Shown here: piece after piece, positions 1-32,157 of the stretch | How the letters are laid out: each line of letters opens with the position of its first letter | Position numbering within the stretch: the stretch's first letter is position 1 | Source: Pelagomonas calceolata | Lineage: Eukaryota > Sar > Pelagophyceae > Pelagomonadales > Pelagomonadaceae | Direction of reading: 5' to 3' | Length of the DNA: 64,000 nt | NCBI GenBank assembly: GCA_918797485.1 | Contig: CAKKNE010000001.1 | Coordinates: forward strand, 2,666,001 to 2,730,000 | Notes under the pieces: generated by a model | What the model was told of the DNA's origin: nothing | The model's input: only the letters and a program-made list of their open reading frames with translations | The model's database searches: none | Program-made: the position numbers and the translations under genes

Positions 1-3000
1 AACCTTCGCCGCTAGCAACGATGATTGTTCCACCTGTTGATGTTGTACCGCGGCCTGACCGCAGGGTAAGCTCACCTCCAGCGCCGCTGGTGCCACTCCC
101 GACTGCCAATGTCACCCACCCACCTTGTCCCTGCGTCGCTGCGCCCGAGCCGATGTATATTCCACCGCTGTTGCCACCCTTCGCCGTGCCTGAGCTAAAG
201 GTTAGTACGCCCGAAGAGCCGTCGACCCCGCTATTAATTGTCGCCACGCATACAGACCCGCTACTTGTGTGCGTGCCCTCGCCGCTCCCCACATATATGA
301 CCCCGCCAGTGGACTGTGTTGAGCGACCAGAGCACACGCTCACTCCACCCCCGCTACCCGAAGTGCCGCTGCCAACAACGAGGGAAAGACTCCCTGAACG
401 ACCATTTGTCGCCGCGCCTGTTCCAATGTATATAGCCCCACTATTTGCATCTTTAGATGTTCCAGAGCTAAAAGCCAGACGGCCGCTACTACCCCCAATT
501 CCGGAGTTTGCCGTGGTCAAGAGCACCGATCCGCTGCTGGTTGCCGTGCCTTCACCACTCATAATCGACATCTTCCCACCAGTTCTCATCTCACTGCGAC
601 CTGCCTGCAGCGTCATCATACCGCCCTTACCGGATGTGCCACTTCCCACAGTCAGGACGAGCGAACCAGCGCGACCGTCCGTTGCCGCACCCGAACCCAT
701 ACACATGTCGCCGCTATTCCCTCCACTTGCAGTACCAGATGAAAAGACAAGGCGACCACTTGCACCACTTGTGCCAGCATTTGGTACGCAAACGAAGATG
801 GACCCGCTACTTGTCGCTGTCCCCTCACCACTTGCTGCAGACAACTCGCCACCAGTCTGGACGATAGACCCTCCTGCCATTATCCAAATCCCGCCTCCCA
901 CTCCCGATGTGCCGCTCCCAGCAGTTATGCCGATGGCTCCACCTCGTCCGCCTGTCGCGGCGCCCGTACCCAAGAATAGCATGCCGGAATTGCCCGCCTT
1001 GCTAGATCCACTACTAAAAATAAGATATCCGCTCGCACCAGAAGCACCACCATTCGCAGAAAGAACTATTACCGTCCCACTGCTAGTTGCCGTACCTTCA
1101 CCGCTTGCGAGCACCACCGAACCGCCGGAGCATGTGCCACTCTGGCCGGCACAGAGCGAGATGTCTCCACCGCGACCGCTTGTGCCGCTACCCACCGTGA
1201 GAAACACCGCGCCGCCCTGTCCACCTGTCGTGGTGCTAGTACCAAGCAAAATATCGCCACTGTTACCGCTTTTCGCAGATCCAGAGGAAAAGATCAGACA
1301 ACCAGAGGAGCCTGTAGTGCCGGAATTACTAGTGCGGACAGTGATCAAGCCGCTGCTACTCGAAGCACCTACTCCGCTCTCAATTGCAACCGAGCCACCT
1401 GTCCTCGTGGTCGAGAGGCCAGCGTCTAGGACAAGCGCACCACCCGATCCACTTGTGCCGCTACCAACAGAAATATATATAGCACCGCCTCTTCCGCCTG
1501 TTGCCGCTCCGCTTCCCAAGAGCAAACTGCCACTATTTCCATTACTTGCTGTGCCAGAAGAAAACACGAGGTGTCCACTTGACCCAGCCACGCCACTGTT
1601 TCCGGTTCTGAATGTTATGCATCCGCTGCTTGTCGCTGTCCCTTCGCCGCTAAGAAGCGAGAGAACTCCACCGGTCGCGGCCAGAGCATTGCTCGATCCG
1701 CTCTGTAAACCCAGAACACCGCCGTCTCCGCTAGTGCCGCTACCCACCGTCATATACATGGCGCCACCACGCCCCCCCGTAGCGCTGCCGCTGCCCAATA
1801 GCAGGTTTCCAGTGTTTCCCGTTTTTGAGGTTCCCGAAGAAAACGACAAACGACCGCTCGTGCCTGCGGCGCCAGCGTTGGGCGTGCGTATGCTGACTGA
1901 TCCGGAGGAGGAGGCGGTGCCTTCTCCGGACTCGATTTTGATCAGCCCACCGGTGGAAACCGCGGACTGTCCAGCTAGTAAACTCATTGAGCCACCGGCC
2001 CCACTTGTGCCACAGCCCACACTTAGTGTTATGGCACCGCCACGTCCACTTGTGGCCACTCCAGTACCGATGAGTAACGCGCCACTATTTCCGCAGTTGG
2101 CTGTGCCAGAAGAAAAGACAAGATGGCCACTTGCCCCTGTAACCCCCGCGTTGCCAGTCTGAATTACTAATGCACCCGAGGTTGATGCTGTTCCCTCACC
2201 ACTCGTCACTGCAACAGTACCGCCCGTTGCTACTTTGCTGAGACCGGCCGATGCATATAGATCTCCACCCCGTGCTGAAGTACCACTACCAACGCCTATA
2301 CTGAGCATGCCACCGCGACCGCCAGTGGCGGTTCCGCTGCCAATAAGGCAGCCCCCAGTATTGCCATTACTTGACGTGCCGGAGGAAAAGGCTACTAGCC
2401 CACTCGCTCCGTTGCCACCCGAGTTGGCTGTGCGGATGGTCAAGGCGCCCGAAGTTGTTGCAGTTCCTTCACCTCCCTCTAGCTTCAGGCTGCCCCCAGT
2501 GCGAGAGGTGCTGCGGCCAGCAAGGATCAGAAGTTCGCCGCCTCGGCCAGAGGTACCGCTGCCAACAGAGACTTTGATGGCACCACCACGGCCTCCTGTC
2601 GAAGCGCCGCTTCCAAGGAGCACTCCGCCCGTATTGCCGTCTTTTGAAGTCCCCGATGAAAACGAGAGCCATCCACTGGCTCCATCCTCCCCACCGTTGG
2701 CTGTCCGTATAGAGACTGAGCCGGAGGTAGATGCGGTTCCTTCGCCAGACTCGAGTAGCAGAGCACCGCCCGTGTACGAACCTGAGCGGCCAGCAGCAAC
2801 AAAAAGCATGCCGCCACCGGCGGACGTGCCGCTGCCGACGGTGAGACTGATCCGACCCCCGCGCCCAGAAGATGCGGCTCCACTCCCGATGAGGCAAGCT
2901 CCTGTATTTCCACCACTTGATGTTCCTGCAGAGAAAATCAGGGAGCCGGATACACCGCGAAAACCGGCATTTGCGGTAAGAAAGCAAACTGTGCCTGAAG

Positions 3001-3300
3001 TTGACGAGGCCCCCTCGCCAGTGGTCAAGATTAATGAACCGCCCGTACGCACGGAGGACGCCCCAGCAACCACAGTGGCGTTTCCTCCCGTCCCGCTGTC
3101 CCCTGTTCCTACGACTATCGTCATGTTACCGCCGCGACCGCCTGCAGAGTCACCAGACGTTATGTTTATCCAGCCACTGTTGCCATTGCTTGCTGTGCCG
3201 GTAGAAATGATCAAGTGGCCACTAACACCAGCGATACCTGCATTCGCAGTGGCAATTGTCATGTTGCCTGAGCTGTACTTTGCTCCATATCCCGATGTAA
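1..3300 (-). repeat. Higher-order tandem repeat of about 275 bp (about 91 residues) in exon 12
   Basis: From the left edge to about 3.3 kb the coding repeats form about 12 copies of a larger unit. Each copy passes through a TANAG..GASG segment, an FSSGTS..GNSG segment, a GSGAATGGRGG segment, a VGSGTSGxGG segment and a TGG..LxSGEGTA segment. Spacing of equivalent points is about 270-280 bp throughout. Copies here resemble each other more than those in exon 3, suggesting later local amplification by unequal exchange. The array continues beyond base 1. Confidence 0.75.
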
Positions 3301-6300: not shown

Positions 6301-9300
6301 ACAGGCAATGTCCGAACGTCTATGGGCTTTGAAACAAGCAAACGAAGGACGCCGGAGTATAGACCAGTGGAGATTGACATCGTGCCGGTCTCTGCCTGAC
6401 TGTCGCCGCTCTGGATCTGAATTTCGCCACTAGAGCCTGTGGCGGATGCGCCAGATGCGAGGCACAGGTCGCCTCCTTCCGCCATTTTCCCAGATCCACT
6501 AGCAAGAGTCACACTTCCGCCCGCAGTGCCAGAGCCCGCGCACAGGCACAAGGCGCCGCCGTTGCCTCCGAGAGCAGTTCCGGCCTGTAATTCCACGTCG
6601 CCTCCGGCACCAGAGCTACTGTAGCCGACTGAAAATTTAATACCACCAGCCCGGCCCGTAACGGCATCGCCCGTGCGGAAGCAAAATAAACCTGAATCTC
6701 CTTTATCCGTCGTGCCCGTTGCCGCACCGGTTGTAAAATTAATCGATCCCGAAGATAAAGATGAAGGAGTACGCAACCTACAAGTCAACAAGTCATAAGG
6801 ACGTGATAAGTAAGAAAAATTGGATGAGGGCAGATAGTAGGTACAACAGTGTTGATACTGTCTGATCCCCCGCCAGCTGTTAAAACTGCGGTTGTGGGCT
6901 CTATGTGTAACACTTTTTTTAAGGCGCGGGACTGCGAGACGTGATGTTACCTGATGGCCCCATTACCGAGGTGCCGGACTGAATCGCCACTGAGCCGCCT
7001 TGATCATCAGCTCCCGCTCCGGCTTGGATAGTAAAGGACCCCCCGACTGATCCAAAGCCTGCTAGAAAGTCTGCATCGCCGCCAGCACCCTCGGTTGCAC
7101 CACCAGCTTCTAGATGCAGCGCACCACCGTGAGCCGTCCCATTTCCACCACGAAAGCACACACGGCCTCCAGTTTCCACCTCGCCGTCACCGGCTGACAA
7201 GACCATGTCACCGCCAACTCCTCCGCTACCAGCCCTAAGATGAACACTGCCACCACGCCCACATTCGTCACGAGAGCGGCCAGCCGTCAGGTTAGAGTCA
7301 CCACCGACACCACCAGTCGCACAGCCGACGGCTATGGAAATAGAGCCAGACCCGGCTTCTTGGGCAACGCCAGTACTAATACTGATTGAACCTGCGTTCC
7401 CAAGAGCCGAGGAACCGGTTTTTAGTTCGAGCGCACCGGTGTGACCTAGCGCAGGTGGACTCACGACGTTTATATCGCCTGAACTCGCTTGATTGCTTGC
7501 CGTGTTGCCAGTAATTCTGCCCGAGGTGATGGCAACCGACCCACCCGTCCCCTGAGTCGTGCTACCTGCGCCAAGACTGAGGTCACCGCCACTTGCCTCG
7601 GTCCCATTCCCGGCGACCAGTCGTAGTGTACCTCCGGTTCCGCCCGCGCCCGCCTGCATGATTATAGCACCACCAATACCCGACATTCCCTCACCGACCG
7701 ACATGCTGATACCACCACCACCGGTCGTCGTGCTTTTGCCAGTGTGCAAACGTATTGAACCTGAGTTCATATCACCCTCTCCGGTCTCAAAGCTTAGATG
7801 TCCAGATTGGCTGTCCACGGTACCACACGCTGCACACGTTGCCACTTTTATATCACCACCCGCTGCGCCGTCGCCCGATGCTATGCTTACGCCACCACCG
7901 CAAGCGCTCCCAGCACCTGCATTGATTATGAGATTACCCCCCGCTACACCCGCGCCAGATGTAAATTCCAGGCTGCCACCTTCACTAGAGTCGTCCGTTT
8001 CGGAGAAAGACCTGCCTGCGTTTACGCTTATGGAACCACCGTCGTCCTGCCTGGAATCTCCCCCCTTGATGTTCAAGTTACCGCCGTGGTTGTCGGTTGC
8101 GTCACCGCCTTGGATTTCGACTCCGCCTCCGGTGACACCAGAGCCTCCTCTGAGCAGCAGGTCGCCTCCCACGCTAGCCTCTACATCACTCAACTGGACG
8201 TCGGAGGCGTGCGCGCCTCCTGCTGCGAAAACGACGTTACCGCCATGCCCATGGCCCGAGGTTCCCGCCAGTAGCTCTATGGCTCCAGACATTGACCCAT
8301 CGGAAGCCCCAGTGTGTGCTTGGATGGCGCCAGACTGGCCGGAGTTCACATCACCGGTACACAGGCAAATATTCCCATGACTTTGAGCATCGTTGTCATC
8401 AGGCCCATCCGATCCAGGCGGTGTGGTAATACGAACGTCACCTGACTTTATCATGCCAACACCTGATTGCATCGACACACTCCCCCCTTGTGCTTGGGTA
8501 CTTGTCCCGCCTTCTATTGTAACGTTTCCACCACCGCATCCTGATCCGCCCGCAACCCGAACAGAACCACCAGTGTTGCTGGTTGAACTACCCGCGCGGA
8601 CTTCCAGGGTTCCGCCTGGTCCACTGCACGACTGGCCCACTCGCACAGATATGTCGCCAGCACCTAGGGTTGATTCTCCAGAGCAGATCAACACCCTCCC
8701 TGACGTCGTGGTGGCGTTTCCAGACGACATTGTGAGATCTCCAGACTGTACACTTGCTTTGCCAGTTGTGAAGTTGAGACATCCTGATCGTCGTCCATCG
8801 CCAGATCGGATCTCGGCGTCTCCTCCACTTTCAGAACTACGTCCTGCTGAAATATGAATGGCGCCACCCCGACCGTCACCGCTTCCACCAGTCATATTTA
8901 TAGTACCTCCGCCTCCATTCTGCGACGAACCAGCGCAGACCCTAATTGACCCCCCAAGACCCGACGTCGCCTCGCCAACGACAACCGAAAAATTTCCCCC
9001 ACCTCGTGACAGCAAGGTGAGGCTACCCCCAGATTGAGTCCCAGCTCCCGAGGCAACTGACACGTTACCGCCGCGCTTACCGTCGCCTGCGAAAAACGAC
9101 GGCATGCTGTCAAATTTGGCACAGCCCAGGGACGCCCCCACATGCGCGAGAGGGGAGGGGTTGATTTGCAACGACACCGGAGGTAGCCTGCGCTCATTTG
9201 TATGTTGCCACCATGTCCAGTGCTAGATGTCTGCACAGTTGCATTTATAGACCCCGTGTTGCCATTGCTACTTGCGCCTGTCGAGAGACGAACGTCACCT

Positions 9301-12300
9301 GAATCGCCCGCGCCTGCCGTTCCGGTCGTAAGCGAGATAGCCCCCGAGCCACCCGCGCCCCCCGGACTCGCGCTGCCTACGAAAAAAGTGGGTTGCGACA
9401 AATCAGGGCTTACTTATTAGGGCCATCGAGCTATGGGGCCTTTCATTTTTACAAGACGCTGATTTCAGACCAGTCGCAATGCTAATGTTACCAGATGATT
9501 CCCCACCAGGACCAGATTCAAGTATTAATGCGCCACCATGATATACGCTGCCTTCCCCACTCCGAATTGTCAAGTTGCCTCCCGAGGCACCGCCGCCGGC
9601 AGCAAGGTTGGCAGACCCACCTTGTGCTGCCTCGCCCCAGATAGAACCAGCGGAGATGTTGACTTTTCCACCGCCTGATATACCGGTTCCCACCTGCAAG
9701 CTTAGGTCCCCCGCTTTGCCCTGCGGTGCATGGCCAGTCCGAATGGATACAGAGCCTGATGTTCCAGACGACACGTCGCCGGTATTCATCTCGATGCTGC
9801 CCGTCGTGGTACTGCCGTCGGCCTCGCCTTGATCTAGGGCAGGGCTTGCGGTGCTAAGCGTAAGATTCCCGGATCGAGTCGCGCTTGCGCCAGATTTGAC
9901 GTCAATGCCGCCGCCGTCTTGCAGAGCATCTCCACCGGCTACCGAGATCTCGCCGCCCGTCGTACATGTCGATGCACCGGCATGCAATAAAATTGCACCA
10001 CCTTTGGCTTGCTTTGAGTTGCCTGCGGTCACCGTCAGCCACCCTCCAGAGCCAGAGGATGCATTGGCGACACATACAGAGACGTTGCCGGCAGCTCCAC
10101 CAGCGACACCCAGCCCGCTTGAGATACTCACTGTTCCGCCTACTTGGCCGTTTGCAGCCGCAACGGTGACGTTTCCACCTAAGCTTCCAGTTGAGTTCCC
10201 AGCCTCGATGCGGATCTCGCCACCCTGCAGACCTGATCTGCCTACGTGCATGAGAATGCTGCCTGCGCTGCCGGTCTCTGATGTGCCCGTGGAAACAAGC
10301 ACCGTCCCTGAGCTTCCTGCAGGTGAATCCCCAGTCGACACCAAGACATCGCCGCTTGGTCCAACCTCTGAGGAAGTTTGCGCTGTCGCAAGACGCACGA
10401 TACCTGACCCTCCCTTCATACCAGCACCGGAATATACATCTATTCGCCCACCCACACTGTCCCCACACCCACCGCGCAAAGCAACTCCGCCACCCCGCGC
10501 ACCTTCTCCGCCGACGACTTGGACATGACCCCCAGCATTACCACATTCGATCGCAGATCCCGCCGTAACATTTATGGTCCCACCCCTGCCAGAGCCACTC
10601 GAGCCAACTGCGATTTGAATCCCCCCGGCCGCACCCTCTGGGTTTTCGCCCGTGCCAAGAAAGAGCGCACCCGAATCCCCAGCTCCGCCAGCTTCCGTAC
10701 TGCCCGTCGAAACGCAGATTCCACCCCGCGCAGAAGCAAGCGTCGCGGAAGCACCTGAAGTTATCCACATTTCACCACCCTGCGCAGCGCCGGTGCCGCT
10801 GGTCAAGTGCAGATCAGCTCCGGAAGTCATGGACACATTGCCGTCTGGTCCGCCGGTTCTTACGACGATGTTGCCTGAAATGCCTCCACCCCCGGCAGCA
10901 AAGATTACGTCACCACCTGCCTCGCCATCTGAGCCTCGAAGAACAATGTCGCCGCCCCCGACAGCACCACTCCCGCTACAAACAACAACAGCACCTCCAT
11001 TTTCTCCCTCCCCTCCCGCCACGCGCACACTCCCGCCGTCAATGCCTGCACTACTAGCTTCAAGTGAAATTCCTCCTGACGTGCCAGTCGCAGTGCCTGT
11101 CGAAACACAAATCCGGCCAGAAGAATCTGATGCGTCACCAGTCCCAATGCTTGCATCACCGGTATGACTCTGACTATCCTTGGTTTGCATGGAAATTCTG
11201 CCGTCCTTGTGAATCGTAAAATATTGATTGTGCGACTGCATGGCTGCAATCAAATCTAGCGTGAGGCCTTGCTTGTCAACTTGGTGGAATCCATCGAGGG
11301 AGAAATTGTAGGCTGGGTGGGTGTAGTTATCCACCACTTCGACACGCTCTGGGAATACCTCGCGTACATTCTGCGCGATTACGCCTCGCACAACCACGTC
11401 GTCGACTCCGCGTATTTTCAGCCACTCATCAGTGTATCGATAATTAGCTAACTTGATCTGGGTAAACCTGTCGTAGATATCATCTAGCTCCGCATCGTCA
11501 AGATAATGTATATCCTCCTTGATGCGTTCGTCTGACGAATACTCGATCTTGGTCACACGCATCGGCACTGTCGAGATAATCGACCCGCCGGCGCCCGCAG
11601 ATTCAAGCCTAAAGTCTGGTCCAGGTCGATTTGACACAGAAAACTCGATGGTGTTGCCAATCGCGCCCGATGCATCCAAACTAATATGACTCGCCGTCAC
11701 ACTTTGCTCCGCGGCAAGCATCTCCACCGTGGTCCCGTCGACTCTAATTGAACTACTGCCGGATCCAGATAGCACGCGCACCATGCCATGTGACTTTCCG
11801 CCGACGCCTGCCGATACTGTCACATTGGGGCCCGAATCTGTGCTGTTTGCAGCGCAGATGGATAAAGAGCCACCGTTGCCGTCGCGGGATGCTCCTGTCC
11901 GTAACGATACCACTCCGCCAATTTCTGGGTCTCCCCTACCGCCACCATCTATGATTATAGACCCACCCCTGCCAGACTCAGCAAGACCGCCACGGACAAT
12001 CACGTCACCGCCGGCATGCCCTCCACCTGCGGCTACTTCTACAGAGCCACCAGATCCGGAAGCATCGGAACTCGCGCCTGCTCTTAGGCTTATGTGGCCC
12101 CCAGCAGCGTTCGATGACGTACCAACATGCAAGAGAATGCTCCCGCTCTCTTCCTGTGCGCTTGCTGTTGACAGTGTCATGCTGCCCGAGACGCCCCGAG
12201 CTGCCGCTCCAGTCGATAGCTTGACAGAACCAGATAGTTCCCCGCTATCCGAACTCGCGATGGAAACTTTGCCACTCGAGCCCGTCGCACCGAGACCACT

Positions 12301-15300: not shown

Positions 15301-18300
15301 TCCTATGGATCCGCCATAGCCGCCGCTAGCCGTTGAAGCCTCGCCCACGCCCAGGACCAGATTTCCAGCATCACCTAACAAACTCGAACCAACAAAGAGA
15401 CTGATTCCGCCGCTACCGCAATGGCCAGCACCGGTGGAGACAAAAATGTCTCCGGAGGCGCCTTCAGCCACACAACTAGTTGAGACCTCAATGTCTCCTG
15501 AAGAAATAGTGCCCTTTGCAGATTTGATGGTAACGTCACCACTCTTGCCGGCCCTTCTAGTAAGCTGCGTTCCACTGAAGATTTCCAAGTTGCCGCCGGC
15601 TGCGTCGATGCCAGCGCCCGCGTTCAAGCTTATGTGGCCTGCAGAGGCTCCATCTCCAGCCGCAAGGCGCAGAAGCCCACCCTGACTAGCCGCCGAATCG
15701 CCGGCTACAAAAATGACGCTGGCCCCAACACCGGTTTCTGAGTCGCCCGCCTGAATTGATAAAGTCCCCACAGTATCTCGAGCATCACCAGTGGCAAGAA
15801 TGATTTTGCCACTGGCGCCCCAAGTCTGTGCCCGTCCCGATGATATTGATACGTCCCCGGAAGCTTTGCCGCTAGCAGTGGTTATGGCAACCTGTCCACC
15901 CACATCACCGGTGCTTGTCCCGCTTTCGACGACTACTGAGCCGCCCAGTTCCATATCATCCCGCCCCGCTTTGATAATTATTTCACCGCCCTTACGTCCC
16001 CCACCCGCATGTAGGTCAACCGCTCCACCGAGTCCTCCGGTCGCCTCGCCTGCCACAAGCTCGAGGTTGCTGCCGCGGATGCTCGTGTGGCCCCCAAGAT
16101 CACCTTGACCAGACGCAACAATAATTTCACCACTACCACCACTGCCGCAAGATGAGCCCGTCGAGCATACTTTCACCGCGCCCCCACCGCTGGTAGCCAA
16201 ACCAGCACAAAGCTCGATGTTGCCAGCTGAGCCCGCCGAATCCCCGGTGGCGATGGATACGTCCCCTGAGTTCCCTTGAACAGATGTCCCAGTTGCGAGT
16301 AGAATGCCCCCACTTGCACTGCTTTCGGCACTTGCGATCGTAAAAGTGCCGCTGGTCCCTTCGCCACCACTTCCGCTGCATAAAGTGAGGGTGCCACCTC
16401 TTTCTCTACCATCGCCAGCTTTGAACTGGATGCTGCCACCGATGTCTCCATTGCCGGCGTTTACGTCGAGTCTGCCGCCAGAAGCCCCTCCGTCGCCTGC
16501 GTGCACGGATATTCTGCCGCCGTCGCCGGCAAGCGAGGCCCCGGACGCCAGCGAGATGTCGCCAGCGATACCAGATACAGCATCCCCCACGGCAACACAG
16601 ATGCCATTGCCCGAATCTCCGTTCATTGCTTCCCCTGTTGTGAGGGCAACGCCGCCTCTGGTGGCGGTCAGGCTTACATCGCCAGCGTTCTCACCATCTC
16701 CCGCTTTCAGAGAAATACAGCCACCATCTGCGACACCAGAGCCGGTAGATAGCAAAATATCTCCCTTGTTCTTGGCCTTCGAGCTAGTCATGAGTGAAAT
16801 AGAGCCGCTATTGCCGCTTGCGGCGGCCCCACTCTGTACGAGAATGTCCCCGCTCTCACCCGAAGATGCGCGCCCCGTCTGTAAGTAAATGGCGCCAGAG
16901 CTCGGCGCAGCCTTTGTGGTCAGTGCGAGAGAACCGGACTCCGAAGATGTAGACTCACCAATAGAGTACCGGTCGTGAAGGGCTTGGAGGCCGCCGATGA
17001 CGTCAAGGGCAAGCCGTTGTTTATCAACCCGATAAAATCTCGTTTTTTGGAACCCCTTGTCTGGAAGCGAGTATGTTTCGAGGACGGATATATGCTCAGG
17101 GAAAATCTCATTGAGCTCTTGTGCAATCACGCCGCGGACTCGCTTGTCGGGAATCCCCCGAACGGCCCGCCACTCGTCCGTGTATCCGTACTCAGTAATT
17201 CGAACTCTTTGCAGGCGGTGAAGCAAGTCGGCCGTGTCAACCGGCTGAAAGTCTTTCTTGATGCGACGATCCGAAGGGCTTGTAAATGACGGAGCCGAGA
17301 TTGGTACGTCAGAATATAACTCGGTGTTGCCGTCACCATTTGTGGTGAGTCGAACATCATACGTCGCAGAACTGCCATCACTATCAGTGATGCCCCAACC
17401 AATTGTGCCGTCCGGACCAGCGAGGAAAGAGACGTTGCCTCCCGAGCCACTCACCACATCGATGTTGTCGCCAGTGATATTCAAGTATGCATCTGTGCTC
17501 AAAAGTGTGGCCGATGCTTTATTTGAGGTAATCGAGACGTCCCCTCCCCGACCACTATCCGACTCGCCGGCTTGGAAAACTATGTCGCCGGCGTCACCAC
17601 TAGTTGTGCTTCCCGTCGCCAGGATTAAATCCCCAGAATCGCCGCCGGTGGAATCCCCTACACAGCGCAAATGATACATGTGAGTAAATACGGGGCATGG
17701 GGAGGGCTTGTTTATGGGGTTTGTTTTCATGCAGCTGCCGGAAAAAGTGAAGTTCGAAAAGACAGATCCGTTTTGTGCTAAAGGTATCCCCCTTATCAAT
17801 ACCCAGGATCCCGATGGCTAAACGCACCTGTGGTTATGGTAATACTTCCGGCAATGCCTCCAACAGCATCCCCTGTTATGAGACTAAGGTCGCCAGAATT
17901 TCCTTCTGCGATGGCTGTGGCACAAGATAGACTACCCGTCACGCCCCCCGGGGCGGCTCCCCCAGTCAGCGATACCGCGCCACCGGCCACTCTCAGGTCG
18001 CCCCCAGCATCGCTCGTTGACTCGCCGGCCACGAGAGAGATAGCGCCAGCAGCACCGACTTCCGAACCGCCTGCGCAGATGGTAACGTTTCCCGAGTTCC
18101 CACTTTCCGCAGTACCCGAGGTAAAGCAAATGTTGCCTGTGTCCCCGGTGCTCGAAGTTGGCGTCGAGATCTCGACGACGCCTCCAGCTCCGACCGTCGA
18201 TGCGCCGCTCGAGATGCTAAGTGTGCCGCCTCCAGCTGTGCCCGCGCCGCTTGTCATAGAAAGATTGCCTCCTGCATCGTCGGTACCGGCCTTTATAGAA

Positions 18301-21300
18301 ATACTGCCAGCGCTTGAAGATGCAGGGGCAGTGTCACCTACGTAAATTGATTTAAACGGCGGGGAAAATAAATCTGAACTCTCTCAATTTGTATCAATTA
18401 TGACTTGTTGACTACGATAGCCAACAAACTGACTCTGATTTCTGCCTGTCGAGATTGATATGCTGCCCGACGACCCTGATGAAGTAGATGAGTCACCCGT
18501 AGACAGAACCAACTGGCCCGTTGTGACAAGCAGCGAGCCCGAAGCGCCGGACGTACTATCGCCGGTCGTCACGCTAATCGTACCCGACGATGATGTCCCT
18601 TGTCCGGAAGAAACCTCCACGTCCCCCCCGAGACCACCTGCAGTGACACCAGCTTCAAGCAGGATGGTGCCACCAGCACAACTGGCCTCGGTCGATGCGC
18701 CAGCTGTCATCGTCAGGTTAGCTCCGTTGCCTGAGGTGGCATGTCCGACAGACAACGCAATGCCACCTCCCACCGAAGTTGTCGCTCTCCCGGAGAGGAC
18801 GCAGACTGAGCCGGAGGTGCCCGAGCTTGAGATCCCAGTCGAGATTGCAAGTCGACCGCTTCCCGAGGTGGCGCCGCCGCCCGCTGTGGCGATTGTGACG
18901 TTGCCGCTCTCTTTTCCCGCACCAGAGGATATTGACAGGTTGCCGCCATGCTGCCGGGAGGAGTTACCGGCAGCCAGTGACAGAGGTGCCCCCGCACCAC
19001 TTATTGACATCCCGACAGAGATAATCACATCTCCAGCTTCTCCAGCAGAAGAGTCTCCGGATGCAATTGCAATTGACCCTGAAGCCGGCAAACCTTCACC
19101 GGCACTACCAGTGGCTGCACCAGTAGCTACTTGTATAGATCCAGACGTACTGTCCGTTTGGCTCGCATTACTTGTAGCGATGGCGATCCCCCCTGTTGCC
19201 AACTTTCCGCCGCCAGAGAGGAGAGCCACCGAACCACCCGCGGCTTGCGAAGATCCAGCGCCAGCGCTGATGTGGATGTTCCCGCCGGCATAATTTTCCT
19301 CTGGTACTTCGTTGAGATTATCTCCTGCGGTGAGGTATAGCGAACCGCCGCAACCGGTATCACCGTAACCTGCGCCTGCTTCCATAATAATCGAACCCCC
19401 AGCACCAGTTGCTGTGCCTGTCGCCAAATGAATGCTACCCGAGTTCGTGCGATATTCGTCGTCACTCCGTCCTCCATCTGCCGTCCTTACCGTGATACAG
19501 CCACTTTCCCCATAAGTTGACTTTCCTGATGTGAGTGCGATGGCACCCCCAGAAGGGGTGGTCTCTGCGTCGTCCTCTGCTTCTTTGAGATCAAGCTTTC
19601 CGGCAGTGATGCGAATGCTACCTGCTGAACCTGACGAAGCCTCGCCAATGGACATGGATATATTTCCTGATCGGCCACTTGATGCAGAGCCTACAAGAGC
19701 AGTTATAAATCACACTGATTGCAACTACAAAATATAGCTGACGCTCAGTCGCGAGCCTGTGCTAAGTGAAATGTCGCCGGTCGTGCCGGTCGACGCGGCA
19801 CCAGTTGTCAGCATTATGTCGCCCGAAGCGCCATCAGTTGGATCTGCGGTACCAATGGTCAAATTTCCGGAGAACGTTTCGCCTGTCCCCGAAACAAGTG
19901 TTAGAAGACCACTTTGATCACCAGAACCTGACGCTATGAGGATGTCCCCAGATTCGGAGCCATTTCCAGCCATCAAAGAGAGACTGCCTCCCCGCGAACT
20001 CTTTGAGGACCCCGCAGTGAGAGAGATTGACCCCGCGTCGCCTGCTTCTGAGTTTCCCGTAGTCAGGGAAACTGCGCCTGAACGGCCGGCTGTGGCACTG
20101 CCAGACTGAATCACAATATTTCCAGAGTTGCCCGTCGTTGATGCCCCACCAGAGGTGATTTGGATACCCCCGGAAGCACCTGTGCCCGACCCCGTCGACA
20201 CATTGAACCGGCCGGAACCGACCCCGTCGCCGCCGTCTGCCGATGCCAGCGAAACAGAGCCCGACGTACTAGAGGTTGACGCACCAGAACGGATCAAGAC
20301 CAGTCCACCGGTGGAGTCTGTCGAGGATCCGCCTTGCAGCACCAGGTCACCGCCAGCACCAGCCGTTGAGACTCCAGGAAAAACTTCGACAGTCCCCGAA
20401 GTACTTTTAGACGAGCCCGTGGCCACGCTGATGCTGCCCGAACTCACGCCATCGCCTGTTGCTATTTCGATCGCTCCAGATTGTCCCGTGGCTGCATTGG
20501 TTTGAATTGTAGCATGACCACTTGATGATTTCGCTGAAGCGCCCGAGCTGATTGTCACAGAACCGCCGCGGCCTGATGTTGAGTCTCCCGCGGCCATAGC
20601 GACGTCACCGCCAGCTTTGCCGGTACCAGTCGACACCACGATCGTACCAGCTTGACCAGACTTCGCATCACCCGTGCAAAGCGAAATGCTCCCTGAGTTG
20701 CCTTCTCTTGACGTACCCGTCGCCAGGGTCAGAGTGCCCGTGTCTGCTTCAGCCGAATACGCTGAGGTTAGATTGACTGCACCACCGTCTTGCTCAGACG
20801 ATTCGCCTGCGAGCAGTGCAATATCTCCACCTCCCGTTGCTCCGGATCCAGCTTGGATGATGGCATGCCCACCTCGCCCCGATTGAGATTCGCCCGCAGC
20901 GAGTATGATGGCACCACCATCCCCGCCATCCTCTAAGGAGGCCCCTGCAGTGAAGGATATGTCCCCTCCAGTACCAGAGTCACCCTCTCCAACGGACATC
21001 GATATTGAGCCGGCCGTGCCTCCACTAGCACGCCCGGTAGATACATTGACCCAGCCACTGTCTCCGCCTTCGGCCGTACCGGATTGGAGCAAAAGATATC
21101 CGCTAGCACCGTTGCTGCCAGAATTGGCTGTCTCGATGATGACTAAGCCTGAAGTAGTTTTCCTTGAATAACCGCTGACGATCCGTATGTCACCACCCGT
21201 CTCATCTGTAGCATCGCCACCTTGCAAAATAGCATCAGCACCGACCCCCGACTCCGAAATGCCGAGCCTCATGTAGACTGTTCCCGCTTTGCCTTGTGTT

Positions 21301-24300
21301 GCGGTGCCTGCGGGACAGAAATTCGGCGTACTTCAAGATACTTAAGTCAATGCGCTGGAATGAACCTGTGGTCAGCAAAACATCTCCAGAATTACCCGTG
21401 GTAGCATTCCCTGTCACTATTGTTACCTGGCCGGAATCCCCTGAATCTGCCGTGTTACTTGAGGCGATTTCAATATCCCCTGTTTTGCTTGAGGTGCCCG
21501 TCGCCGCACCGGAAAGCAGTTCAATGTTACCACCCTCGTCAGTAGCGCATCCCCCCTCAAGACACACGGCCCCGCCTCGAGCAGATCCGTCACTCGTATC
21601 GCCTGCTGTCAGCGAGATGGCGCCCGCAACGCCACCTGCGGCCGCACCCGTGCCAACAGTCAGTCCGCCTGTGTTGCCGTTCGAGGTCTGGCCAGAGGCT
21701 AGAGTTATTTTACCCGTGGTGCTTGAGTCGTCTGCAGATTTTAGGCTGATTTGTCCCGCTGTTCCTTCGGTTGATGGGCCAGAGAGGATTAAGATTGACC
21801 CACCTTCACCTTCCGTCCCACCAAATGCGGACCCGGCTACTAGCTCCAAATCACCGCCCGAGTCGCCGTCTGACGAGTCTGATGCGTTGCCAGACCGAAG
21901 GATGACTTGACCGCCACCACCCGCCATCCCGCCGCCTGCCAGCAATTTGACACTACCACCGGGCGAGTCTGGGCCGTTTGTACCTCCCGCATTAATCGTG
22001 ATATTACCACCCGCACCAGTTAGACCTTCACCGACGCAAAGTTCAACGTGACCTCCGTCGCCTGAGCTAGCAAGACCAGTTCCCAGGGTGAGGTTCCCGG
22101 ACAGACCATTTGTGCCGCCTTTGCCTACGAGCGGGGGACTGCTTAACAAGTGCCAGCACCCACGTGTGCTTGCGTACAAAATTGTCACGTGAGGACACTG
22201 AAACACGACCGGTTGTGACAAGAACATCTCCCGAAGAGCCACCTTCACCGCCGTCCGGCGTTCGAAGGGTGATTGGTCCACTAGTCGATTCAGCTGCGGC
22301 TCCAGATGTCACGCAGATGCCCCCACCACGAGCTGAATCTGCGCTCGCACCTGCAGTTACACTGATATCGCCCCCGATTCCCGTTGACGATCCGACCGAC
22401 AGCGTTAAGCGCCCTGCATCGCCGCTTTCTGCATCGCCAGTTTCGATAAGTATGTCGCCAGAGCTGCCCGTAGACGCGCCCGTGTGGATTGAAATGCTTC
22501 CAGAGCCATCGAGTCCATCAGATGCTGTTTTGAGACTCACAGAACCCGACCTGTCGGTATCTGAGGGTCCAGATAGCAATTGAATGCTGCCGCCATCACC
22601 TGACGCCGCTCCTCCTGCTGTTATGACAAGAGATCCGCCCTCTGAGGCCGCATCAATAGAGTCGCCGCCAGCGAGCGTCACATTGCCGCCCGTTCCACCT
22701 TGACCGGCGGCGAGGGCCATAGATCCGCCCAAGCTATTCGAGCTATCCGAAAGCTCGCTTCCTCCAGCGGCCATGGTGATGGACCCGCCAGGCCCACATC
22801 CGGTTTTACCAACAAGCAATGTGATGCAACCGGCGCTCGCTTCAGCGGAGTCTCCGGTCGACAGCATAATGCCGCCGCTCGTCCCATCTGTAGAGGAACC
22901 AGTCTCGATATCTAGCTTACCCGAGCTTCCATCCGACCCTGCGTTCACCGTCCGAATCGTAACTTCGCCTGAGGACGTGTCTGAGCCTGTTCCCGACTCA
23001 ATAGTGATGCTGCCCCCTGCGCCCTGATTGTCTGAAGTTCTCCCAGCCTGAATGTATATCTCGCCGCCAGCACCAGAGGCTGTTGAGCCCACTTCGAGCA
23101 AGAGCTTGCCCCCTGTTCCCTGTTTTGTTGACCCTGTCTTCAGGCAGATAGCACCTGAGCTTCCTCCAGTTGCGATACCAGTACTTAATAAAACATCTCC
23201 TGAGGCTCCCTCGGAGCCTGCATCGGCTGTGAGGAACTTAATTGACCCTGACATCGACGATTTTGCGTTTCCGGAGCGCATCAAAATGTCCCCACCGGCT
23301 CCGCTGTCGGCTTGCGAGTCGCCCGCTTGGAGCGTCAAACAACCGCCCATGCCGGAGTTGCTTTCGCCAACAGCAAGTGAGATGTTCCCGCCTGGACCAC
23401 CGTTCCCTTCGCCCGTTTTCAGGTGAATTGCGCCCGAATCTCCACAACTTGATGATCCAGTGCAGAAGAGGATGTCGCCGGACACACCCGCCTCACCAGC
23501 ATTGGTAGTAGACAGTGTAATTTTGCCAGATGAACTGTCCAGTCCAGCTCCTGAAGATACTAAAACAGAGCCCCCACTGCCGCTGAGGGCAGTGCCGCCT
23601 GCAAGAGACACGTTTCCACCTTCACTGTCTGGAGATTCGGACGCAAGTGAAAGTCCGCCCTGAAACAGTATTCCGCCCCCGTTACCACCATTTGTGTGAA
23701 TGGAATTACCACCAAATAAGCTCAATTTGCCGCCAACACCATCGGTCGCTTTCGAATCACCAGCAACCAGTTCAAGATTGCCACCGTCTCCACTGGCACC
23801 CGTCCCGACGCACATAGAGATAGAACCGCCCGAGCCGCCCTCCGCGGAAGACCCAGTCTCCATCACTATTGAGCCCGAATCGCCTGATTCTGCATCTCCA
23901 GTTGTGAAATACATCGAGCCACTTGCGCCGAGAGATCCCCCTTCGGCTGTTCTGATGAATATTGGACCTGACGTGGAAAGGGTGGATGCGCCCGAGGACA
24001 TGCAAAGATGGCCCCCAGTCAGTCCGCTACTTGTAGAAGTTGATCCCGCAGAAAAAGTGATATCGCCACCCGCACCATAATAGGCATCACCAACCACGAG
24101 CGAAATGGCACCACCCCGACCATCGTATGCATCGCCGGTGCGTACCTCGAGGTGGCCGGAGTTGCCACTAGAGGCCGTGCCGGTGTGCACGAATACCCCC
24201 CCAGATACACCCGCTTCGCCTGCATTGGCTGTTTGGAGCGTCATGTCACCTGAGGAGCTTGCCATGCTATATCCAGTCTGCAGCAGTATTGCCCCGCCGG

Positions 24301-27300
24301 GGCCTGCCGCCGCAGGCCCGCCGTGGCACTCAAGAATTCCTCCGTCGTTGTCAGCAAGATTGCCCTTGGCTGCGCCGCCGTGGATCATCACGGTTCCCCC
24401 GCTTCCACCGTTTTGGCCCGATGCTGAATACGAACCATGGCCTGCTAGGACTGAAAGACAACCGCCCGTTTGTCCCGCTTCCGTGGTTTCTCCAGCATAA
24501 ATGTACAGATTGCCGCCATCGCCAGAGTCTCCGGTCCCAACCTGAAGCGATATATTCCCTCCCCTTCCATCCGTAGCGTCGCCTGTCCCGCAATACAGGT
24601 ACCCGCTGTTGCCAAGAGTTGTTGTGCCTGTCTCAAAAGAAATTGAGCCAGAAACGCCGCCACTGCCAGAAACGGCGCCGTTTGCGGTCCACAGGTAAAC
24701 ATTTCCAGAGCTCGTCCGGGTACCAGAGCCGGTCTGAAACATAAGAGAACCGCCCGTAGCTGCTGTTGCACACCCACCGACTATCTCAATGTTCCCGCCA
24801 ACATCATCGGTTGCCTCCAAGCCACTCGCTTCCCCGCCGTACAAGAGCAGGGCGCCACCGTCCCCACCATCGTCGCTTGCGGTTGATGATCCATGACCAG
24901 CAGAAATTAGAATCAATCCACCCGAAGAAGCCTTATCGGTCGTTTCACCGGCAGAGACAATGACATCGCCGCCATCGTTGGCGTTTCCCGTGCCGACAAG
25001 AAATTCAATGTTTCCACCAGCACCTGATACTGCATCACCGGTTGCTAAAGAAATCAAGCCCGAGGTACCCGCACTTGACGTCCCAGATGCAAAATGTATG
25101 GCTCCAGAGACACCACTTTGACCAGCATTCGCCGTATCTAGGGAGAAGGTTCCTGACGTTGACTGCTCTGAGTATCCAGTAGTTATGGAAATCAGTCCTC
25201 CCGTTGCCGCTGCCGTGGTCGAGCCGCTAACCACGACGAAGTCAGCACCGGCCGCGGAATCCCCTGTGCCAACTAGAACGTGTATATAGCCGGCACGCCC
25301 TCCTGAAGCTTGGCCCGTCTCAACGTTTACGTACCCAGAATTCCCATTTGAACTTGTGCCCGTGGAGAAATCTATCGAGCCACTCGTGCCCTGGGTACCA
25401 CCGTTTGCTGTCGAGATGTCAATTAGCCCAGACGAAGATGCCTCGCCGTAGCCCGTGCGAACAACGAATGAACCGCCGCGTCCCTGGTTAGCGTATCCAC
25501 CAGCAAACTCGAGACTTCCACCGTCGTCCTCTGAGAGTCCGCCCTGCGCGGCACCACCGAATAGTTGTACTAAACCACCATTCCCACCATCATACTGGTA
25601 TGTGGACGAGCCCTCGCCGGCCTGAATTGTCACGGAACCTCCTGTAGCCTCATCATCTGTAGATTCTCCAGCAGCCAAGAAAACATTTCCTCCATCGTCA
25701 GAATGGCCAGTGCCGACTCGTGCCATAATAGTTCCGCCATGGCCATCATGTGCGTAACCTGTTTCAAGTGCAATCGCCCCCGAGTTCCCTGCAGATGTGG
25801 TGCCTGTGGCGACTGATATTTCCCCACTCACGCCAACTGAACCGGCATTTGGAGTACTTAGGTCAATGAAACCAGAAGACGTCTCAGAAGAGTATCCTGA
25901 TTCGAGGACCAGGAAGCCGCCCGTCGCTGCGTCAGTCGTGTCGCCGGCCACGAGTTCTATCTCGCCTCCTTCTCCAGTGTCACCATCGCCGACTCTCACA
26001 TTAACGTAGCCACCACGGCCAGACGTCGCTTGGCCAGAGACAATCTCGACTGCGCCACTGCATCCATCTTTGGATGTGCCCGTGGAAAGAGTCATACTTC
26101 CAGATATGCCGCTGAATCCTGAATTGCCCGTTGCAACAAGCAGGTCTCCACTCGAACTGTGAGTAGACAAGCCACTTGATACGCGCAAACGCCCACCATA
26201 GCCCGACTGCGACTGCCCCCCTACAACCGAGACATCGCCGCCGTTGTCATTGACGTTTGAACCTCGGGCTGTGCCGCCCTTGATCATCACATCACCGCCA
26301 TCGCCGCCGTCATTCAGATTGGTCGAGGCGCCCGTGCCCCCTTGGAGTGTAATTGCACCTCCTTGTGAAGCGGCAGCAGACGAACAGCCTGCTCCGAGCA
26401 AAATGTCACCGCCGGCTCCCAAATCACCTTCACCAGCACGCAAGGCGATGTCACCACCCGCCCCATCGAGTGAATCGCCAGTACTGATCGATACTTGGCC
26501 AGAGTCTGCAGTCACCGCATCGCCAGTTGCGATTGTCACAGCCCCACTTGCTCCGTCGCCCCCGACATCTGGCGACCCCACAATAACGCGGCCCGAAGAC
26601 CCTGCGTGGCCGATTCCTGATTGTAGCGTGACGGAACCGCCGGTCCCGCAAGTTGCAGATCCACCGCTGATCATCATAGAACCGCCAACATCGCATCGCG
26701 CACGACCAAGCGCTGCTCCGCCTTCTAAGAGAATGGCCCCGCCATCCCCACCATTTCGCGGATCCAGCGACAGTCCATTGCCACCTTGGAGGGTCACTGC
26801 GCCGCCTGCCGCGGCATCTGCCGATGTGGCACCAGCAACTAGAGCCACGTGACCACCGTCTCCAGAGGCTCCTGCGCCGACGCCAAATAAAATGCTACCA
26901 GCCGCGCCACAGCCTGACGTACCAGTTGTGAACTTGATTGATCCCGAGGTTCCAAAGGCCGTAGTGCCCGTTGCGAGGGAGAGGATCCCTGATGTGCTAG
27001 AGTCGCCTCCATTGGCTGTACATAGCAGGCAGGAACCAGACCCACTCAGTGTGCCGGCACCGCTTACCAGAACGCAATCTCCACCCACCGCAGCTTTGGA
27101 ATCACCTGCGGCGATGTAGATACCACCGCCGCCATCCCCCGATCTTCCCCCGTAAAAATTGATGTCACCTGCGTGTTCAAGGCCACTGCCGGCACTTATC
27201 GTTACGGGCCCACCGGCACCACAAGAGGAGTCACCACCAGCAATTTCAATCGAACCACCACATGCATCACCGCCCATTGTAGTTCCCGCGCTGATGAAGA

Positions 27301-29468
27301 AACCCCCCCCCACTTCACCGCCACCAGCCCCGAGCTCAATATTGCCAGAAGATCCATGACAAGAGGATCCAACTGCAAGGGCGATGCATCCCGAGTTACC
27401 AGACACACTGGTCCCAGTAGTGAAGCCCATATTCCCGGTGTTGCCATTTGAGTTGTGTGGCGTACTAATGAGTAGCGCCCCTGGCGTTCCAATGCCACCT
27501 CCAGATGCAAGCCTGATATCTCCCCCTGAGCCATTAGCATCGGGCGAGTCGCCGCCTGAAATTGAAATGGTGCCACCGGTCTCATAACCGTCTCCGCCCA
27601 CGAGCGAAATGGTGCCCGAGGTGCCTTCCGTCGAAGTTCCCGTGCCAAGCAGAATTGCCCCGGAGCTTTGTGATGACGCAGTGCCAGTCCGCAGGTACAC
27701 ACTTCCGCTGGCACCATTTTGGCCAGCATTCGCCGAGCTTACATACAGACCACCAGATGTCGAAAACTCACTTTCACCAGAAAAAATACAAATCGAACCT
27801 CCGGTTCCCATTACCGATGTTCCACCCTTGATCAATACATCTCCACCCGCACCACTCCCAGCAGCATGCCCGCCTCGAAGAATGACACCACCTGCACTTG
27901 CACCGTCATCCCCGGCGCCGCTACTGACCAAGACTTGTCCACCTTGCATCGAGGAAGCGCCGGCACGGATCTCGACACTTCCTCCAACCCCGTCGCCACT
28001 ATCACCGGATGCAATAGAAATACCACCGCTCTCCTGGCCGCTGTCTGATGTGGCGACCGAAATGTCTCCCGAGCTACTCGTGGCCGAGCCGGTCAAGACC
28101 GAAACGGAACCTGACGACGCAGTTGCATTCGCGGTTGAAACAGTCACGCTACCCGAACTTGATTTGGCATCTCCAGAAACAAGCACTATTTCACCACCAG
28201 GCGTTTGTTCGGCGCCCTCGCCCGCGGTGAGTGTTATGGAACCACCTGCACCACTGCCTGACTCGCCGACGCGCAAAGCAATCCCACCCGCAAGTCCTGA
28301 AACGGCATCTCCGGTCGAGATACACACAGCTCCGGAGTCACCATGGGCAGTGCTCCCGGTGGATACCGAAATATCACCGGAGCATGAGCCATGGCTGCCG
28401 CCACTTGCTGTCATGAATGTTAGCACGCCTCCATTTGTACCACCGGAGCCAGACATCAGTTCCAGAGCACCACCAACTCCCACTGCAGACTCTCCTGCTC
28501 GAAGGCTCACAAGGCCACCCGCTCCTGCCATGGAATCGCCGCCTGTAATGTCCACATTTCCTCCGTCGCCGACATAGCCACCAAGGGCGGGGCTGCCATA
28601 GCCATCACCACCACGGAGGGTCGCAGAGCCACCTTGGCCGCCATGCGGGTTTACACCTGAACCGGCTGCCAGTGACATTGACCCACCCATTCCATTTTCT
28701 TTGAAGTTTTGACCTCCCTTGATGGTTACCTACACACATTCATTGTGTTCGGAACGCGAAATCCTCCGGATCGGGAAATTAGACACGGAAACTCAAGTGT
28801 TGCTCTCCACGGGAGAGCAACAAACGAGAAATCAATAAATACATCGCCAGCTGAAACGACGGATATTTCGACCTCGTCTATGATGAATTCGAAAGTGCCG
28901 CCGCCCGTCCCAACACCCGATGAGCGGAAGTGCCCACCTCCAAACACAGGGTCAGCCTCAACAATAAGATTACCCACAATACGGTTCTCGACCTGATGAG
29001 AAAGAAGTTTGTTTCAGTATGACCTCGCAAGACTCTGCCTAACCCTCAACAGGAACATGCATGAATTTAGACGGGGTTAGATGGACACGGCGGGTCGAAG
29101 ATGGAACCTTCGCACTCTGAGAGAAATATCTCAGATACAGTGAGGCATCGCTGCTCGGAGGCACACCACGCACACCCTTCCATATCCACGCATACGCCAC
29201 AGCTGCTAAGTTGCTCACACTGGGGTATCTCAGGGCATTCCGCAGCCGCCGTTAGCCAGTAATTACACGGGAGCCCACTCAAAGGCCCATTGCTTCCCCG
29301 TTCCATGCACTGAAGTGTCGACAAACAAAAGCCACAGCTTGGGTTGGCAGCGCAAGCGCCGCAATCGCTGATTGCCTCATAGTAGTCACCGCCGTCGTTG
29401 CTAAACCGCTCGCACTCGTGCGCTGCCGCCTCTAGCACCAACGCGATCACGAGTGACAAGACCCGCAT
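1..29468 (-). CDS. Giant secreted Gly/Ser-repeat protein with two internal S74 auto-processing domains (3' end beyond window)
   Basis: Twelve exons can be read on the minus strand: 29468-29073, 28992-28843, 28729-22210, 22124-21366, 21307-19757, 19690-18446, 18337-17828, 17657-9471, 9376-9188, 9086-6941, 6777-6365 and 6279 to base 1. All junctions keep frame, giving at least 9,448 residues and no stop. The start is the ATG before a clear signal peptide (MRVLSLVIALVLEAAA). Order: signal peptide; two Cys-rich PSI-like modules (residues about 20-130); a short beta-rich linker; then hundreds of repeats like SGDISLSTGDA, broken by S74 domains at residues 3839-3943 and 5752-5858. Repeats of this kind suit stacked beta-strands, as in fibre or beta-helix proteins. 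Known of S74: it trimerises and releases itself from phage tail spikes and from eukaryotic MYRF. Inferred: a secreted or surface fibrous protein. Its biological role is unknown. Exons 4-9 all start and end in phase 1. Confidence 0.85.
9087..9187 (-). other. Intron 9 of the giant gene, probably GC-AG
   Basis: Exon 9 ends GCAG and the intron begins GCTACC; the acceptor is TTCGCAG|GCGACG (101 nt, phase 1). GCAGGC occurs at both borders. The join gives the regular repeat SAGDGKRGGNVSVASG. A GT alternative a few bases further on would add four residues foreign to the repeat pattern. Confidence 0.55.
11215..11535 (-). other. Internal peptidase S74 / intramolecular chaperone domain 2
   Basis: A second, diverged copy lies about 5.7 kb downstream in the same exon. 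It begins KIEYSSDERIKEDIHYLDD and continues with ANYRYTDEW, VRGVIAQNVREVFPER and VDKQGLTLDLIAAMQS. The Ser-Asp-x-x-x-Lys signature is kept: Ser5752 (codon 11535-11533) and Lys (codon 11520-11518). Before it comes the segment FSVSNRPGPDFRLES, reminiscent of phage fibre tips. The two domains share the same core but differ at many positions, so the duplication is not recent. Repeats continue after it to the left edge. Confidence 0.88.
16960..17274 (-). other. Internal peptidase S74 / intramolecular chaperone domain 1
   Basis: Within exon 8 the repeats stop at a spacer of about 100 residues. A domain of about 105 residues follows, starting SPSDRRIKKDFQPVD and continuing through TEYGYTDEW, RGVIAQELNEIFPEH and VDKQRLALDVIGGLQALHD. 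This is the classic S74 layout (SDxRxK...Y.YTDE...GVIAQE...P......VDY/K..L......A). The putative nucleophile is Ser3839 (codon 17274-17272) and the Lys lies five residues on (codon 17259-17257). By analogy with phage endosialidase and MYRF, the chain would be cut at this Ser after trimer formation. Repeats resume directly after the domain, so it is internal rather than C-terminal. Confidence 0.88.
18338..18445 (-). other. Intron 6 of the giant gene, probably GC-AG
   Basis: Exon 6 ends ...TCGACAG and the intron begins GCAGAA; the acceptor is CGTAG|GTGACA (108 nt, phase 1). An alternative GT donor 13 nt downstream (A|GTCAGT) also keeps frame but adds residues that break the repeat spacing. GC-AG is therefore preferred but not certain. 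Confidence 0.5.
19691..19756 (-). other. Intron 5 of the giant gene, GC-AG type
   Basis: Joining exon 5 to exon 6 in the repeat register needs the donor ACAG|GCTCGC and the acceptor TTGTAG|GCTCTG (66 nt). I found no GT donor nearby that keeps phase 1. The hexamer AGGCTC lies at both exon-intron borders, so the exact cut is ambiguous by a short direct repeat. Confidence 0.65.
22210..28729 (-). repeat. Exon 3: long array of 15-20-residue Gly/Ser/Thr repeats with a higher-order unit
   Basis: A single 6,520-nt exon encodes almost nothing but degenerate repeats of the form GGxIxLxTGxSxSGxSG. In its middle part several minor repeats group into a larger unit of roughly 90-100 residues. Each unit runs through a TANAG..GVSG segment, a TGTSSxGNSG segment, a GRGG..VGTGDSGDGG segment and an AGETT segment. 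Copies differ at many sites, so the array is old or evolves quickly. Beta-branched residues alternate with Gly/Ser turns, as expected for strands in a fibre or beta-helix. The complementary strand gives long Pro-rich open frames, which are an effect of the repeat composition. Confidence 0.8.
28843..29468 (-). other. N-terminal secretion and PSI-like module of the giant gene (exons 1-2)
   Basis: Exon 1 (29468-29073, 132 codons) encodes a hydrophobic signal peptide of about 17 residues followed by two Cys-rich modules. The first contains CGACAANPSCGFCLSTLQC and the second CGVCVDMEGCAWCASEQRC. The CxxC...C..C spacing and the W/F-C pairs resemble PSI (plexin-semaphorin-integrin) domains, which are disulfide-bonded and extracellular. 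Exon 2 (28992-28843, 50 codons) adds a Gly-rich, beta-prone linker that leads straight into the repeats. Both introns here are phase 0 (80 and 113 nt), unlike the phase-1 introns further on. The module shows that this is a true gene start and that the protein enters the secretory pathway. Confidence 0.8.
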
Positions 29469-31935: not shown

Positions 31936-32157
31936 CAAGGCCCCGCCCGGGTCACGGTCACGGTAACTTGAGTTCATCTTAATTACAACTCATGGAGGAA
32001 GGGTCGAATTCTCGTTCGGGAGGACTACGCGACGTCAGGTGAGGCCTAAACAATGTCGGAAATTCGCATCTGAATTTCGCGCGAAACCCCCCTCCTCCCC
32101 CTCGCTCCCCCACTAGGAGGACTGCTGCTGTGCTCATTGTCCGCTGATACGCATAAC

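Follow-up and report, generated by a model that had tools for sequence, protein, structure and literature searches.

S74/ICA domains are self-processing domains that are removed by phages as end caps after fibre folding and that serve in MYRF as the switch releasing the protein from the membrane. The ICA domains of MYRF, and reportedly those of phages, trimerise, and cutting at the serine requires the trimer; MYRF alanine mutants at S587 and K592 are described as uncleaved (PMC8326128). The ICA domain of MYRF lies within the protein, and its cut is reported to yield an N-terminal trimer and a C-terminal homo-oligomer (PMC3742443). S74 fibre genes are also described as ubiquitous in polinton-like viruses across most eukaryotic groups, where the domain is present in single copies, often C-terminal, in proteins of up to 3.9 k residues (PMC12220804). 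A cryptophyte giant virus is likewise described as carrying an S74 gene (PMC10960955).

The window analysed here (the whole stretch of 64,000 nucleotides) holds on its minus strand a gene that a preliminary description had read as encoding a secreted repeat fibre with two self-processing domains. The gene was rebuilt from the sequence, its domains and repeats were compared with profile, structure and contig collections, and the resulting readings were weighed against one another. The internal position and doubling of the S74 domain, MYRF as its nearest solved structure and the preference of the introns for one site are new beyond the preliminary description.

Results

Gene Model and Splicing

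The rebuilt gene runs from position 29468 to position 1 on the minus strand and consists of 12 exons with a coding sequence of 28,345 nt, or 9,448 codons, which contains no stop codon and is still open at base 1 (Table 1). The totals of the preliminary description, at least 9,448 codons in 12 exons, were thus recovered from the sequence, although they were known beforehand and its end coordinate was adopted as the start; the ATG at 29468 is the first one downstream of an in-frame stop. The largest unspliced open frames of the minus strand, counted from stop to stop, have 2,804, 2,220, and 2,106 codons.

The 11 introns are 58–170 nt long; eight are GT-AG and three (introns 5, 6, and 9) read as GC-AG, and a G follows the acceptor AG in 11/11. 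An AG followed by G was also seen by eye in three introns of neighbouring genes, at 45.6, 41.8, and 35.1 kb. Dinoflagellates, too, have a G after the acceptor AG. Unusual donor dinucleotides are described for dinoflagellates, and GC donors are possible there as well (PMC7789003). Such splice signals offer a lead on the placement of the source organism, short of an assignment.

The exons join without frame conflict, as the preliminary description had emphasized, and the absence of stops agrees with that statement, but in-frame joining is weak evidence for the gene model because every junction offers many stop-free splice pairs: a scan with a donor range of −90 to +150 nt and an acceptor range of −150 to +90 nt gave 33–79 stop-free GT-AG or GC-AG pairs at ten junctions and 13 at junction 1 (J1). 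Stronger support than the open frame comes from the repeats, since a repeat unit of 13–18 residues is restored at each of J2–J11. The model is further supported by the long frames that are open before any splicing and by the constraint on the super-repeats described below. A GT donor 12 nt further on also fits at introns 6 and 9, adding four residues, and further junctions have nearby alternative sites as well; small changes to the number of codons are therefore possible.

Within the repeats (J3–J11), eight of nine introns split the codon of glycine 8 of the unit in phase 1; the intron at J2, the start of the first unit, lies elsewhere. If any G|G or AG|G site of the repeat coding sequence is allowed, the chance of at least 8/9 introns at that site is about 2e-6, and that of 8/10 with J2 counted is 7e-6 to 1e-5, figures that are not independent of the repeat register because the register guided the choice of splice sites. 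Each exon from 4 to 9 begins and ends in phase 1, and any one of them could therefore be lost, duplicated or skipped with the frame intact.

Table 1. Features of the giant gene in the window. Cleavage sites are predictions.
Feature	Position	Strand	Basis or remark
Exon 1: ATG, signal-peptide-like N-terminus (MRVLSLVIALVLEAAAHEC...), Cys-rich region	29073..29468	-	Signal peptide judged by eye
First Cys-rich PSI-like module (aa 19-78)	29235..29414	-	PF01437; limits from Cys pattern
Second PSI module (aa 84-119)	29112..29219	-	PF01437, best stretch; limits from Cys pattern
Exon 2 (aa 133-182): lead-in before repeats	28843..28992	-	No Pfam match
Exon 3 (aa 183-2355): beta-repeats	22210..28729	-	
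Exon 4: beta-repeats	21366..22124	-	
Exon 5: beta-repeats	19757..21307	-	
Exon 6: beta-repeats	18446..19690	-	Both flanking introns with donors read as GC
Exon 7: beta-repeats	17828..18337	-	
Exon 8 (aa 3711-6439): repeats, S74a, repeats, S74b, repeats	9471..17657	-	
S74/ICA domain a, predicted cleavage at Ser3839 (SDRRIK; Lys +5)	16954..17274	-	PF13884, 5.6e-13; end approximate
S74/ICA domain b, predicted cleavage at Ser5752 (SDERIK; Lys +5)	11203..11535	-	PF13884, 6.1e-11; end approximate
Exon 9: beta-repeats	9188..9376	-	
Exon 10: beta-repeats	6941..9086	-	
Exon 11: beta-repeats	6365..6777	-	
Exon 12 (aa 7356-9448): beta-repeats	1..6279	-	Open at window edge
91-residue super-repeats, six unit types, regular (about aa 8451 onward)	1..2995	-	Lag-91 identity

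N-Terminal Region and Beta-Repeats

Residues 1–18 of the product resemble a signal peptide by eye. They precede two stretches that pass PF01437 (36.8 bits against a gathering score of 23.1; E 5.2e-9 for the protein), in line with the two PSI-like modules proposed before. PSI modules are extracellular in familiar proteins, and together the signal-like N-terminus and the PSI modules point to a secretory route for the predicted product, which so far amounts to about 876 kDa and is acidic (770 D+E against 367 K+R).

From residue 181 to the window edge, S74 regions excluded, 582 repeat units were segmented, which agrees with the several hundred announced earlier; the count depends on the segmentation, a looser one giving 232 units from aa 5877 onward only. 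The unit, with the consensus G-x-[IVL]-x-[LIV]-x-[TSA]-G-x-[SAG]-x-x-G-x-[GS], has about 15 residues and combines one predicted beta-strand with a Gly/Ser/Thr turn. Unit spacing is exactly 15 in 312/579 cases, and in the units of exactly 15 residues (first pass) glycine occupies position 1 in 98% and position 8 in 97%. A 2,000-residue stretch reaches a score of 1,242 with 125 units, whereas three shuffled versions score between 14 and 63 with 2 to 16 units, under a matrix trained on the same protein that it scored.

Towards the C-terminal end of the visible protein the units are organized into super-repeats, with a lag-91 identity of 0.48 in aa 8200–9448. Eight super-repeats align without gaps, two copies that differ in length having been left out; across their 28 pairs pS is 0.67–0.85, that is, saturated, and pN only 0.27–0.39, ranges that seven copies (21 pairs) give as well. 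All four Gly codons are in use at the near-invariant glycine positions. Selection therefore acts on the protein: the C-terminal repeat DNA has drifted freely and the protein pattern has been kept.

Structure prediction for the repeats was of low confidence (mean pLDDT 45.6); the model had no PDB fold match at E up to 0.001, and many solenoids are in its list of matches below significance. A search of the PDB with the repeats gave one match (E 0.069), and repeat searches of phages and of viral contigs gave none. No Pfam family matched the 2,220-aa repeat ORF at E up to 1, other repeat pieces had sub-threshold Pfam matches only (DUF2917 at 0.0036 and 0.0096, CD24 at 0.09, DGF-1_N at 0.033), and two repeat ORFs searched against Pfam, NCBIfam, and PHROGs had no family at 0.001. 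The repeats differ from known beta-repeat families (RTX, YadA/Hep_Hag, adenovirus shaft) in that none of the corresponding Pfam profiles matches them. HMM searches with the repeat and S74 segments, which the preliminary description had suggested, return S74 from Pfam and, through a repeat profile, a bacterial protein described below, but no known repeat family.

Two S74/ICA Domains

PF13884 matches both stretches jointly at E 1.1e-23; taken alone, domains a and b score 49.4 and 42.9 bits against a Pfam cut-off of 22, and the Ser-Lys dyad is intact in each, so that the two self-processing domains recognized earlier stand. When aligned, the two domains share 37% identity, with Ser5752-Lys5757 of domain b in the same place as Ser3839-Lys3844 of domain a, which in turn align with MYRF S587 and K592. 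Both domains also conserve, as read from the alignment, the residues that correspond to MYRF R590, Y615, Y617, I637, and Q639. The two serines are 1,913 residues apart, the second lies at least 3,697 residues from the window edge, and beyond the helix of each ICA domain the chain soon returns to repeats.

Among PDB sequences at E up to 1, the only match of domain a was the MYRF ICA structure 7dc3 (E 6.1e-11). AlphaFold2 modelled domain a with a pLDDT of 91–97 per ten-residue block over model residues 131–220, followed by a 24-residue helix to residue 235, the end of which is less sure. Foldseek placed three 7dc3 chains at the top (best E 5.5e-8, 33% identity), the only PDB matches at E up to 0.001; the runners-up were the endosialidase chaperones 3gw6/3gud (E 1.5e-3 to 1e-2). 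Predicted viral structures gave 155 matches to domain a with E no higher than 0.001, the best at 1.6e-7, and the likeness to MYRF does not settle the origin of the domain because these viral structures match about equally by E-value. A tblastn search with domain a matched 60 phage records, all at less than 60% identity, and PHROG tail-fibre profiles match S74a together with a portion of the preceding stem. Domains a and b group together in an S74 tree of 152 rows (from 163 after removal of near-duplicates; restricted to plus-strand ORFs with 75 or more residues), with mixed support: a bootstrap of 98, a value that had not settled, and an SH-aLRT of 35.

S74 Domains and the Repeat in Other Genomes

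Used alone as a query, the two S74 domains had no relatives among the contigs of viruses or prokaryotes, probably an effect of overly specific patterns. With two phage rows added to the query, a comparison set of 161 loci was obtained, comprising the best 80 of 132 loci from viral contigs, the best 79 of 182 from prokaryotic contigs, and 2 phages; these loci were picked by S74 patterns and not by position, none is a known eukaryotic gene, and the S74 profile applied to them was built from domains a and b and two phages. The loci listed contain 198 S74 ORFs, 194 of them closed within the locus, and 194/194 of the closed ORFs stop no more than 230 residues past the serine or, where the dyad motif is lacking (27/198), past the domain start. 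A second S74 domain at a domain E of up to 0.01 was found in 0/198 ORFs of the loci listed. A bacterial S74 protein (L184) was considered as a six-fold S74 protein and rejected, since five of its six matches score 4–5 bits with a domain E of 0.23–0.37; it has at least five near-identical 91-residue N-terminal repeats, which are not S74 copies.

A four-unit repeat profile finds one protein of 512 residues (L137, 10001–10189), from a Cryomorphaceae MAG, at E 2e-7 among 6,257 ORFs; read by eye, about five 15-residue units stand directly before its S74 domain. A homologue of 507 residues (L168), 75% identical, comes from a genome of the same taxonomic order and likewise has about five of these units directly before S74. 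An initial statement that the repeat is absent from S74 ORFs, drawn from a strict pattern under which none had two or more unit pairs, was dropped when the profile found L137. A 643-residue ORF (L134), not one of the S74 ORFs, is the only one of the 6,257 with two strict-pattern pairs. The repeats are also present without S74 in an 815-residue bacterial protein (L167) that is fibre-like by eye and has no PHROG match, no phage match, and no relative in viral contigs. The repeat profile A6 hit 2/395 genomes of the phylum to which L137 belongs, one of them L137's own, and 0/337, 0/343, and 0/339 genomes of three other phyla, zeros that show little because those phyla hold no positive control. Repeat and S74 are therefore combined in a small bacterial module, apparently a rare one.

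Genomic Neighbourhood

To the right of the giant gene lie a multi-C2 gene, EMP70, an MFS transporter, pieces of APC1, an SNF2 helicase, and the beginning of a calpain-domain gene, a content that gives the window the look of eukaryotic nuclear DNA. These neighbours are general eukaryotic genes and do not by themselves point to a microalga. Scans of the window for tRNAs and for Rfam families at gathering score were negative. The multi-C2 gene (32375-37968, plus strand) is divergent from the giant gene and is possibly a ferlin by its sequence, with a weak FerI match (E 0.011, under the cut-off); the calpain (C2 peptidase) domain belongs to a gene start at 63006-63998 on the plus strand that is cut by the window edge. 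At 31319-31956, roughly 1.9 kb upstream of the start codon of the giant gene, a 158-bp unit is repeated four times in tandem; two of the copies are identical, and the outer two reach 78% and 85%. A 51-nt inverted repeat (46714-46764/56178-56228; 82% complementary) brackets the APC1 region, with 9.4 kb between the arms.

Discussion

The explanation that we consider best, with a probability of roughly 0.55, is that the locus is a single nuclear gene for a giant secreted trimeric fibre precursor, which would be aligned by its ICA domains and cut by them into at least three pieces. Trimerisation and cleavage are here inferred from homology; going by the conserved residues, the ICA domains probably do cut the precursor. 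Three chains would assemble side by side, each ICA domain with the helix that follows it would clamp them in register, and each would then cut its chain just before the serine, leaving at least three trimeric rods out of one precursor. The first predicted rod has 3,820 residues and 229 repeat units (353 kDa per chain), the second 1,913 residues and 117 units (178 kDa), and the third at least 3,697 residues and at least 236 units (at least 342 kDa). At an assumed rise of 0.48 nm per unit, 582 units would extend over about 0.28 micrometres. Internal ICA domains would ease the problem of register that arises when hundreds of similar repeats have to be aligned. The reading as a secreted repeat fibre, already put forward in the preliminary description, gains from the sequence, from both dyads, and from the predicted fold of domain a; its signal peptide was judged by eye only. 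Such fibres would most likely be cell-covering or adhesive extracellular material, and the choice among coat, sheath, and adhesive is a guess from composition.

A more specific version of this precursor is a tentative proposal, to which we would give clearly less credence: a self-dissecting fibre polyprotein in which the ICA domains act as register checkpoints, each firing only once the preceding rod is correctly zipped. One gene would then give a defined set of rods of fixed length, a molecular ruler for an extracellular coat. We know of no virus, bacterium or animal in which a coat is built with a molecular ruler from a self-cut polyprotein.

The alternative that comes nearest to the cut precursor is one in which the ICA domains are internal trimer clamps only, cleavage being absent or the pieces staying bound, so that the fibre would be continuous. 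The prompt return of the repeats after each ICA helix would fit such a fibre, as would the consideration that some 580 similar units make register control a real folding problem; both Ser-Lys dyads are nevertheless kept, together with the five further residues matching MYRF, which argues for kept activity, and we regard a purely clamping role as unlikely, if well worth bearing in mind. Less probable again is that the repeats form a single-chain beta-solenoid and that the S74 domains are inactive relics of domain shuffling. One strand and a turn per 15 residues or so would suit a solenoid with one coil per unit as well as a trimeric helix, and solenoids are frequent in the non-significant fold list, but the dyads have been kept in domains that are just 37% identical to each other, and S74 occurs together with the same repeat in both L137 and L168.

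It is about equally improbable that the gene is an endogenised or captured attachment fibre of a polinton-like or giant virus and not a structural protein of the host. The ubiquity of S74 fibres described for polinton-like viruses (PMC12220804), where single C-terminal copies are frequent, and the S74 gene described in a cryptophyte giant virus (PMC10960955) would accommodate such an origin. Against it stand the eleven introns, the PSI modules and signal-like start of the protein, the internal position and doubling of S74, a length of at least 9,448 residues, general eukaryotic genes on the right side, and the absence of any viral hallmark in the ORFs scanned with Pfam, which belong to the giant gene and to the right side of the window. 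That the interval holds several independent genes, or a decayed one, instead of a single giant gene seems highly improbable: the many alternative in-frame splices would permit it, but there are no stops in 9,448 codons, the junctions J2–J11 restore the repeat unit, and the C-terminal repeats are under constraint. Read as one gene for a secreted fibre precursor, the locus supplies a definite candidate for an extracellular protist protein of very large size, and an example of fibre parts, familiar from phages, that resemble material of the cell surface.

Among the literature matches listed, and apart from the MYRF papers, there was no eukaryotic protein that combines such repeats with S74 domains in an internal position or in several copies. 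Pfam scans of pieces that together span the 12 exons gave no MYRF-type DNA-binding domain or transmembrane segment. The transmembrane part of this result is less sure: the highest 19-residue hydropathy is 1.62 in the visible protein, the C-terminus of which lies beyond the window.

Several described systems share parts of this layout. Phage tail fibres and endosialidase tailspikes resemble the giant protein in having a stem before S74, but in the comparison ORFs listed S74 is single and, in the closed ones, near the C-terminus, whereas here S74 is internal, doubled, and located in a spliced gene. The bacterial proteins L137 and L168 have one C-proximal S74 domain and about five units, compared with 582 units in the giant protein. 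Fibres of polinton-like viruses are similar in that S74 is described in large repeat fibres within protist genomes; the laminin-G, collagen, phage-tail or baseplate domains reported for them (PMC12220804) were absent from the giant-gene pieces scanned with Pfam. MYRF shares the ICA fold, the Ser-Lys dyad, and an internal ICA domain with sequence on both sides of the cut, but it is described as an ER-membrane transcription factor with one ICA domain (PMC3742443), whereas the giant protein combines two with repeats over at least 9,448 residues. Two internal S74 domains in a giant secreted repeat protein are thus unmatched by the comparison loci, by polinton-like fibres, and by MYRF. If they are active, the two ICA copies in this giant secreted eukaryotic protein would represent a third use of the domain, beside the phage end cap and the MYRF switch, in which it would set the register of an ultra-long fibre and cut it.
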